From assembly GCA_040429635.1 (NCBI GenBank), contig CP158972.1, positions 3,107,501 to 3,171,500 on the forward strand: a stretch of 64,000 bases of DNA. Direction: 5' to 3'. The first letter of the stretch is position 1; each line of letters opens with the position of its first letter. Positions 4,796 through 8,113 of this stretch are shown in pieces. Below the pieces are notes generated by a model. The model was given only the letters and a program-made list of their open reading frames with translations. It was not told the DNA's origin and searched no databases. A program made the translations under genes and the position numbers. The DNA comes from Tamlana crocina (GTDB taxonomy: Bacteria; Bacteroidota; Bacteroidia; Flavobacteriales; Flavobacteriaceae).

Positions 4796-6730
4796 ATGAT
4801 ACATATTACTTTACCCGATGGGAGCGTAAAAACGTTTGACGAAGGCGTTACAGCAATGGATGTTGCAAAAAGCATTAGCGAAGGCTTGGCAAGGAATGTT
4901 ATTTCGGCCAGTTTTAATGGCACAACCGTAGAAACCGTAACCCCGCTGACCATCGATGGTAATTTAGTATTATATACATGGAAGGACGACGAAGGCAAAA
5001 CGGCCTTTTGGCACAGTAGTGCGCACGTTTTGGCTCAGGCTATTGAAGAACTTTACCCTGGTGCTAAACTTACTATTGGCCCGGCGATTGAAAACGGATT
5101 TTATTACGATGTGGATTTTGGCGAGCACAGCATTTCTGAAAAGGATTTTAAATCTATTGAAAACAAAATGTTGGAAATAGCCAGAGGCAAGCACGACTTT
5201 AAGATGCGTTCGGCCAGTAAAGCAGATGCTCTTGAACTGTACAATGACAATCCGTTTAAAACCGAATTGATTGAAAACTTGGAAGACGGCACGATTACTT
5301 TCTGTGACCATTCTACGTTTACCGACTTATGCCGCGGCGGGCATATCCCGAACACTGGCATCATTAAGGCGGTTAAAATTTTGAGTGTTGCAGGTGCTTA
5401 CTGGCGCGGCGATGAAAACAAACCACAATTAACTCGTGTTTATGGCATTTCGTTCCCTAAACAAAAGGAACTTACCGAGTATTTAAACATGCTCGAGGAA
5501 GCGAAAAAACGCGACCACAGAAAACTAGGTAAAGAGTTGGAGCTTTTTACTTTCTCGCAAAAAGTTGGTCAAGGTCTTCCGTTGTGGCTCCCCAAAGGAG
5601 CTGCTTTGCGCGAGCGTTTGGAAAATTTCCTTAAAGCCGCCCAAAAGAAAGCGGGCTACGATATGGTGGTAACACCCCATATTGGACAAAAAGAACTTTA
5701 TGTTACTTCCGGGCATTATGCCAAATATGGAGAAGATAGCTTTCAGCCTATCCACACCCCAAAGGAAGATGAAGAGTTTTTACTAAAACCAATGAACTGT
5801 CCGCACCACTGCGAAGTTTACAAACACTACCAATGGAGTTATAAAGATTTACCTGTTCGATATGCCGAATTCGGTACCGTTTATAGATATGAGCAAAGTG
5901 GTGAATTGCATGGTTTAACCCGTGTTCGTGGTTTCACTCAAGATGATGCCCATATTTTCTGTACGGCCGACCAGTTAGATGCTGAGTTTAAAAATGTAAT
6001 AGACTTGGTACTTTATGTTTTCGGTTCGTTAGGGTTTGAAAACTTTACGGCGCAGGTATCCGTAAGGGATCCTAAAAACCCCGACAAATATATTGGTGAT
6101 GTTTCCAATTGGGAAAAAGCCGAACAGGCCATTATCAATGCAGCCTCCGATAAAGGTTTAGATTATGTGATTGAAGAAGGCGAAGCCGCATTTTATGGGC
6201 CGAAGTTAGACTTTATGGTAAAGGATGCTCTAGGCAGACGTTGGCAACTGGGCACCATTCAGGTAGATTACAATTTACCGGAGCGTTTCGACTTAACCTA
6301 TAAAGGTAGTGATAACGAATCGCACCGTCCTATTATGATTCACCGTGCGCCATTTGGAAGTATGGAACGTTTTGTAGCGCTGTTACTTGAGCACACAGGT
6401 GGAAATTTCCCGCTTTGGCTCATGCCGACCCAAGCTATTATCCTATCTATTAGTGAGAAATACGAAAAATACGCGCAAAAAGTTTTAAATTTGCTAGAAA
6501 ATAACGAAATTCGCGCCCTTGTAGACCATAGAAATGAGACCATTGGGAAGAAAATTCGGGAAGCCGAAATGCAAAAACACCCGTATATGATTATCATTGG
6601 CGAGCAAGAAGAGCAAGAAAGTAAAATAACTGTGCGTCAGCACGGTGGAGCAGATTTAGGCATGATTTCTGTAGAAGCGTTTACGGAAATCATAAATAAA
6701 GAAATCAAAAAAACGTTGAAATCGTTTTAA
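4796..6730 (+). CDS. thrS: threonine--tRNA ligase (ThrRS)
   Basis: Class II aminoacyl-tRNA synthetase charging tRNA-Thr. The 644-residue length is normal for the bacterial enzyme. Order of domains: TGS (about 1-62), the second additional (editing) domain with H73-x3-H77, then the catalytic core with motif 2 around [18 protein letters not shown], and a C-terminal anticodon-binding domain. The MNCPHH motif supplies the zinc-binding Cys335. The ATG is placed directly after a good promoter. It heads the thrS-infC-rpmI-rplT cluster found in many bacteria. No oddities in the reading frame. Confidence 0.98.
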
Positions 6731-6766
6731 TAAATATAATTAAGTTTAATTTAAAACCATAACGCC

Positions 6767-7315
6767 ATAGCAATTAGAAGAAGACAACAGCCCAGAAGGG
6801 TTAAACAAGAGGACAAGCATAAGATTAACTCTAAGATTACAGCACAAAAACTACGTTTAGTTGGAGATAACGTAGAGGTGGGCATTTATACCAAAGGTGA
6901 TGCCATGAGAATAGCCAACGAGTTGGAATTGGATTTAGTTGAGATATCGCCTAACGCCGACCCTCCTGTTTGCAAAGTTATGGATTACAAAAAGTTTCTT
7001 TACGAGCAAAAGAAACGTGAAAAAGCTTTAAAGGCCAAAGCCAGTAAAGTAACCATTAAGGAAATTCGTTTTGGGCCTCAAACCGATGACCACGATTACG
7101 AATTTAAAAAGAAGCACGCCGAAAAGTTCTTAAAAGAAGGTGCCAAATTAAAAGCTTTTGTATTCTTTAAAGGACGTTCTATCGTGTTTAAAGAGCAAGG
7201 TCAAATTTTGTTGTTAAGACTGGCACAGGACCTTGAAGAATTTGGTAAGGTGGAACAAATGCCAAAACTGGAAGGTAAGCGAATGACGATGTTCATCGCC
7301 CCGCATAAAAAATAA
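6767..7315 (+). CDS. infC: translation initiation factor IF-3, non-canonical start
   Basis: IF-3 binds the 30S subunit and enforces initiator tRNA and start-codon choice. The frame continues upstream of the first GTG (6878) to a TAA at 6752, and this upstream part encodes typical IF-3 N-terminal residues ([11 protein letters not shown], then [12 protein letters not shown]). No ATG, GTG or TTG exists in that stretch. The start must therefore be ATA (6767, giving MAIRRR, which I prefer) or ATT (6773). A rare start codon on infC is known from E. coli, where it gives autoregulation. The central domain shows [20 protein letters not shown]. Length is 182 residues with the ATA start. Confidence 0.93.
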
Positions 7316-7379: not shown

Positions 7380-7422
7380 CACAAAAGTAATTAAGCGAAA
7401 TAATTAAAACTAGGAGAAGAAA

Positions 7423-7620
7423 ATGCCTAAAATGAAGACAAAATCCAGCGCCAAAAAACGCTTTAAGCTAACTGGTACTGGTAAGATTAAAAGAAAGCAC
7501 GCTTTTAAGAGCCACATCTTAACAAAGAAATCTAAAAAGCGTAAGCTTGCGTTAACCCATGATACTTTAGTACATAAGGCTGACGAAGACAATATTAAAA
7601 CCATGTTACGTTTAAAGTAA
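7423..7620 (+). CDS. rpmI: 50S ribosomal protein L35
   Basis: A 65-residue, very basic protein starting [20 protein letters not shown], the normal length and N-terminus of bacterial L35. It lies between infC and rplT as usual. An AGGAG sequence sits 7 bases before the ATG, which is unusual in this phylum, where Shine-Dalgarno sequences are mostly absent. It could mark efficient translation of a ribosomal protein. Confidence 0.98.
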
Positions 7621-7768: not shown

Positions 7769-8113
7769 ATGCCAAGATCAGTAAATTCTGTAGCAAAAAG
7801 AGCCAGAAGAAAAAAGGTTCTAAAACAAGCAAAAGGTTACTTCGGACGTCGTAAAAACGTTTGGACAGTAGCAAAAAATGCGGTTGACAAAGCGATGCAA
7901 TACTCGTACAGAGACCGCAGAAACAAAAAGAGAACATTCCGCGCTTTATGGATTACGCGTATTAACGCCGGAGCCAGAGAACACGGTTTATCTTATTCTC
8001 AATTTATGGGGAAATTAAAAGCTAACGACATCGAACTAAACCGTAAGGTTCTAGCCGATTTAGCTATGAACAACCCAGAAGCTTTTAAAGCTGTAGTAGA
8101 GAAAGTAAAATAA
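7769..8113 (+). CDS. rplT: 50S ribosomal protein L20
   Basis: A 114-residue protein with the L20 N-terminus ([20 protein letters not shown]) and the conserved [17 protein letters not shown] block. It binds 23S rRNA early in 50S assembly and, in studied bacteria, represses its own operon. It is the last gene of the thrS-infC-rpmI-rplT cluster and is followed by a strong hairpin terminator. Start and length are standard. Confidence 0.98.

Follow-up and report, generated by a model that had tools for sequence, protein, structure and literature searches.

In the 64,000-nucleotide stretch of DNA analysed here (the window), and in almost every relative compared within the Flavobacteriaceae, its family, sequence conservation strongly supports ATA as the start codon of infC, the gene of translation initiation factor IF3. 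Autocontrol by IF3 appears to be the most likely explanation of this start. To the full reading, in which infC starts at AUA, IF3 controls its own synthesis through this weak codon and the leader acts as a helper, we assign a probability of roughly 0.8. Non-AUG starts of infC are well known and AUA is not unique to this genome; what looks new is the setting, an infC leader that is poor in Shine-Dalgarno sequences and carries a conserved element and a G-Y-C triplet, unlike the leaders of the neighbouring ATG genes.

The infC locus and its reading frame

The features of the locus are as follows.

4796..6730, + strand: thrS, ATG start, 3' end 36 nt ahead of the ATA (open reading frame; TIGR00418, 728 bits)
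6742..6756, + strand: leader element AAGTTTAATTTAAAA, consensus AAGTTTAAYTAAAA, conserved in the infC leaders of the family
6752..6754, + strand: TAA, the last in-frame stop ahead of infC (reading of the frame)
6764..6766, + strand: G-Y-C triplet, here GCC, adjoining the infC start and conserved in the family leaders
6767..6769, + strand: predicted ATA start codon of infC (conservation in relatives)
6767..7315, + strand: infC gene of 182 codons for translation initiation factor IF3, ATA start, TAA stop
6878..6880, + strand: GTG, first canonical codon in the infC frame, at residue 38 within the N-terminal domain; rejected as a start
7423..7620, + strand: rpmI (bL35), ATG start (TIGR00001)
7769..8113, + strand: rplT (bL20), ATG start (TIGR01032)

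Open reading frames and profile matches thus give the order thrS-infC-rpmI-rplT, all on the + strand, an order that accompanies IF3 autocontrol of the E. coli type without strictly defining it. After the TAA at 6752-6754 the infC frame reads AAC CAT AAC GCC ATA GCA ATT AGA AGA AGA and, as the original prediction had stated, no ATG, GTG or TTG occurs between this stop and the GTG at 6878. That the frame nevertheless encodes the N-terminus of IF3, the second element of that prediction, was confirmed by a match to TIGR00168 (191.7 bits against a cut-off of 60, E 8e-57) and by alignment to solved structures. The match is to a full-length IF3 (profile positions 1-170 aligned to residues 14-182), and it is the only IF3 match that the profile search gave in the whole one-contig genome. 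Compared with solved IF3 chains by phmmer, the protein read from ATA gave a best E of 8e-41, and with the longer chains the alignment begins at residue 10-20 of this protein. A start at GTG 6878, which would cost IF3 37 residues, would therefore damage the N-terminal domain.

Conservation of ATA within the Flavobacteriaceae

The original prediction had pointed to the infC upstream regions of other Flavobacteriaceae as a place where conservation of ATA could be seen, and ATA was kept in both samples that we compared. It stands at the infC start in 80/80 named relatives (the best 80 loci of the named-genome search, close relatives only) and in 107/107 genomes read from a family draw (104 by script, and L262, L285 and L333 by eye, the sequence of L333 being cut 9 nt upstream of the ATA). 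The family draw took one genome per genus (199 genomes, 196 of which, in 195 of 198 genera, gave a match); the 107 come from those of the 196 matches that were listed, the better-scoring ones, while of the other 89 matches 7, one of them the window's own genome, belong to other samples and 82 lie outside the count. The named set and the family draw partly overlap and their counts are not summed. A further 19 genomes of the family, from draws across the order and the phylum, had ATA in 18 cases and ATC in one (L082, genus code g2).

The surroundings of the codon are similarly conserved. Among the 80 named loci the triplet ahead of ATA was GCC in 65, GTC in 12 and ACC in 3, and codon 2 was GCA in 78 and GCT in 2. 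The last in-frame stop lies 0-4 codons ahead of ATA in 79/104 family loci and in 68/80 named loci, and an in-frame TTG upstream of ATA was seen in L314 only (1/104 family loci).

Could the conserved ATA simply be an isoleucine codon? Codon 1 was ATA in 81/81 aligned sequences (the 80 named loci and the window), whereas the conserved internal isoleucine codons vary in the same alignment (codon 20: ATT 55, ATA 14, ATC 12; codon 24: ATT 69, ATC 11, ATA 1). Codon 3 changes even the amino acid: it was ATT in 41, ATA in 38 and CTT in one of the 80 named loci, and the family draw adds TTA, GTA, TTT and ATC. This combination argues for a start codon rather than for the coding of isoleucine. Nucleotide constraint near the infC start is general (codon 5 was AGA in 80/81 aligned sequences), so that the case rests mainly on the comparison of codon 1 with codon 3. 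The neighbouring genes began with ATG throughout the readable named loci and the window (thrS 77/77, rpmI 80/80, rplT 81/81, with 4, 1 and 0 unreadable starts left out). By these sequence comparisons the start of infC appears to be non-canonical: no ATG, GTG or TTG seems usable, and another codon is conserved at the start site. The choice between ATA and ATT that the original prediction had left is thereby narrowed to ATA, since codon 3, which is ATT here, varies among relatives and codon 1 does not; its preference for the ATA at 6767 is upheld by the invariance within the family and by the other codons found at the homologous site elsewhere, with the ATG-started neighbours as a control.

Start codons across the Bacteroidota

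Beyond the family, we read 169 loci (L082-L250, 19 of them from the window's own family), one to few per family, taken from 190 genomes of the order draw and 243 genomes of the phylum draw that had a match. The tally of codons excludes several undecided loci in f8, f11, f22, f28, f38, f46, f47, f57 and other families.

ATA: f3, f4, f5 (6/7), f6, f10, f13, f14, f15, f21, f23, f34
ATC: f8 (2/3), f9, most of f11, one locus of f5; for the most part also f27, f30, f37, f43, f48
CTG: f2 and most of f7
TTG: f17, f19
GTG: f12 and one locus of f22
ATG: f18, f20, f24, f25, f31, f42 and two genera of f7

Alanine is frequent as codon 2, which ties ATA, ATC, CTG, TTG and ATG to one homologous site; a few loci (e.g. 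L144, L165) also have an in-frame canonical codon further upstream. On an IF3 tree of 144 of these loci (FastTree on a short protein; 11 loci failing the full-length read and 14 without an assigned start codon were left out) the start codon changed at least 23 times, a rough figure because some labels set by hand are uncertain (ATA in f16, TTG in f38). When only canonical versus non-canonical was scored, the same tree gave at least 9 changes. As some lineages use ATG, TTG or GTG, control through a weak start would not be universal in the phylum.

The strongly reduced genomes of f16 (L162, 0.3 Mb; L155 and L186, 0.6 Mb) retain ATT ATA where infC would begin; ahead of the conserved part of infC, no canonical codon occurs in L162 or L155, and L186 has an ATG 13 codons downstream of the ATA. 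In L137 and L140 (f37, genus g111) the infC profile match is listed with one internal TAA.

The infC leader

Within the family (up to 106 leaders), A is found at -13 in 98% and at -12 in 96% of the infC leaders, G at -3 in 92% and C at -1 in 93%; the triplet before ATA is GCC in 67 and GTC in 26 of the 106. In the leaders of thrS, rpmI and rplT, C at -1 reaches at most 4%. Further upstream lies the element AAGUUUAAYUAAAA, at about -25 to -11 (beginning at -25 to -23 in 69/80 named loci). Its distance to ATA is kept while the gap between thrS and ATA varies (16-55 nt in the 80 named loci). When one mismatch at most was allowed, AGTTTAAYTAAAA was present in 73% of the family leaders (n = 104) and 93% of the named ones (n = 80), in 0.2-0.3% after mononucleotide shuffling, and in none of the leaders of thrS (0/76), rpmI (0/79) and rplT (0/80), counts that describe rather than test the element because its consensus was read from the infC leaders themselves. 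Similar strings were seen by eye ahead of infC in several further families of the order (f6, f7, f9, f13 and f15).

The A at -12 and -13 fits an upstream A-motif reported in Flavobacterium johnsoniae (PMC8710568, which cites Baez et al.). The family's G at -3 disagrees with the Kozak-like A-3 of that species, where a change of A-3 to G in the tuf leader lowered GFP by 70% (PMC6847099). Across start codons, G-3 accompanied ATA in 37/49 loci, ATC in 17/54, CTG in 3/15, TTG in 0/10 and ATG in 0/13, and C-1 did so in 36/49, 15/54, 4/15, 4/10 and 1/13, respectively. The link of both bases with ATA is plain in these counts but not in phylogenetically independent pairs, which, only 5 in number, gave a median p of 1 for G-3 and of 0.25 for C-1.

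Shine-Dalgarno sequences are nearly absent from these leaders. Between -22 and -5, any 4-mer of AGGAGGA was seen in 1% of the family leaders (n = 104) and in none of the 80 named ones; the strong Shine-Dalgarno sequence of the non-canonical starts of the S. aureus type is not a feature of these leaders. Elsewhere, a Shine-Dalgarno-like 4-mer was present in 8/8 loci of f30, 11/11 of f37, 3/3 of f48, 4/5 of f15 and 2/2 of f14, and absent from the 34 loci of f2-f6 and f8-f12 (0/34) and from f27 (0/5). Thus, a weak start is paired with a Shine-Dalgarno sequence in part of the phylum, but not in the Flavobacteriaceae or much of the order. In L183, L189, L196 and L200 (f15), L096 (f13), L146 (f23) and L247 (f34), GGAGG lies directly 5' of the ATA of infC.

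Other readings of the start region were tried. A promoter reading of AAGTTTAA was rejected, as TAAGTTTA breaks both rules of the F. johnsoniae -7 box TAHHTTTG, in which the final G is nearly invariant and the H positions are practically without G (PMC6847099). Nor is AAGTTTAAYTWAAA a genome-wide regulon motif: it was counted 4 times in the genome of the window, and its reversed pattern 5 times. The RNA around the start is nearly unstructured (z -1.26), and no Rfam family reached its gathering score in the start region.

The downstream gene rpmI has an AGGAG Shine-Dalgarno core at 7412-7416, 6 nt ahead of its ATG at 7423, and a Shine-Dalgarno-like stretch of 4 to 5 bases lies 3-8 nt ahead of rpmI in 75/80 readable Flavobacteriaceae loci. 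CCUCC is present at the 3' end of the window's 16S rRNA. In PMC8710568, rpsU is described as the sole ribosomal gene of Flavobacteriales with a Shine-Dalgarno sequence.

Proposed autocontrol by IF3

How might the weak start work? IF3 checks the fit between codon and anticodon of the initiator tRNA and turns away poor fits; the third base of AUA mispairs with the initiator anticodon (A-C). Free IF3 would lower initiation on the infC mRNA and a shortage of IF3 would raise it, and the outcome would be a homeostatic autocontrol like that through AUU in E. coli. Since Shine-Dalgarno pairing plays so small a part in these bacteria, it is probably the A/U-rich leader element (about -25 to -11) that helps the 30S subunit to settle at AUA. 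IF3 is known to repress starts other than AUG, GUG and UUG, and the AUU of E. coli infC serves feedback (PMC5472188). With AUA, ccpN and citZ reporters in S. aureus reached ∼10-30% of the expression seen with AUG (PMC13009471).

A different view of the same codon is that ATA is a real start that sets a low, fixed level of expression, with no IF3 feedback in this phylum. The G-3 of 92% of the family leaders would suit such down-tuning, given the effect of the A-3 to G change on the tuf leader (PMC6847099). Against it stand the repeated swaps among codons that pair poorly with the initiator tRNA, occurring in the gene whose own product screens out such codons, and the control of non-AUG starts by IF3 known in E. 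coli and Streptomyces (PMC5472188); we consider a fixed level rather unlikely and prefer autocontrol by IF3, which the original prediction had already suggested as the E. coli device with another codon. More tentatively, the Shine-Dalgarno-independent leader (AAGUUUAAYUAAAA with G-Y-C) may take over the task of the Shine-Dalgarno sequence of other infC genes and place the 30S subunit on an AUA that IF3 can veto, in the Flavobacteriaceae and perhaps in parts of the order. We regard this as possible though doubtful; if true, leader and AUA would form a self-contained autocontrol device that works without Shine-Dalgarno pairing.

Other start sites

Initiation at codon 3, the ATT at 6773, would resemble E. 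coli, and ATT is a documented infC start there and in B. subtilis and Listeria. Yet this codon is variously ATT, ATA, CTT, TTA, GTA, TTT or ATC, whereas each of the 184 loci read by script has ATA as codon 1, and in L277 an in-frame stop directly adjoins the ATA on its 5' side. A start at codon 3 is therefore very improbable. We give still less credence to a shortened IF3 begun at GTG 6878 or at some other canonical codon within the gene. This GTG is the earliest canonical codon in the frame, but its use would lose part of the N-terminal domain, and in relatives the distance from the ATA downstream to the first canonical codon ranges from 11 to 89 codons. Moreover, most of the variation in codons 2-37 falls on the third base (mean entropies by codon position 0.53, 0.32 and 1.14 bits, against 0.24, 0.11 and 1.07 bits in the rest of infC), indicating that the N-terminus is constrained, though less than the remainder of the protein. 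Read-through from thrS is ruled out by stops between thrS and the infC start, and across the 80 named loci the two genes stand to each other in each of the three possible frames. An ATG destroyed by a sequencing or assembly error, which the original prediction had named as a possible refutation, can be dismissed, since the same ATA is present in independent genomes (L002, a contig whose IF3 is 100% identical, and a further 79 named genomes).

Comparison with known infC starts

E. coli infC, which we read as a positive control, gave an ATT start with GGAGG ahead of it. It shares with the window the order thrS-infC-rpmI-rplT and a non-AUG start shortly after thrS. The two differ in that E. coli combines AUU with GGAGG while the Flavobacteriaceae combine AUA with almost no Shine-Dalgarno sequence, and in that autocontrol has been demonstrated for the former and is inferred for the latter. 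The infC of Staphylococcus aureus also starts at AUA, as mapped by Ribo-Ret in 2026, and its authors proposed autocontrol; there, in a different phylum, a predicted extended Shine-Dalgarno motif directs initiation to AUA (PMC13009471). Other non-canonical infC starts use other codons in other phyla: ATC in Streptomyces (PMC5472188), AUU in B. subtilis as in E. coli (PMC1805508; PMC6097659) and ATT in Listeria (PMC13068326). The listings and passages searched in the open-access literature described no infC starting at a non-canonical codon in Bacteroidota, which given this scope is weak evidence of novelty.

For annotation, gene finders limited to ATG, GTG and TTG would shorten IF3, and a plain list of open reading frames begins infC 37 codons late. 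The conserved natural AUA start and its leader offer material for studying how start codons are found without Shine-Dalgarno pairing, and the start codon of infC is seen to switch repeatedly between poor codons. Autocontrol by IF3 at this start would extend the weak-start device of infC to the Bacteroidota, a phylum whose mRNAs are mostly without Shine-Dalgarno sequences.
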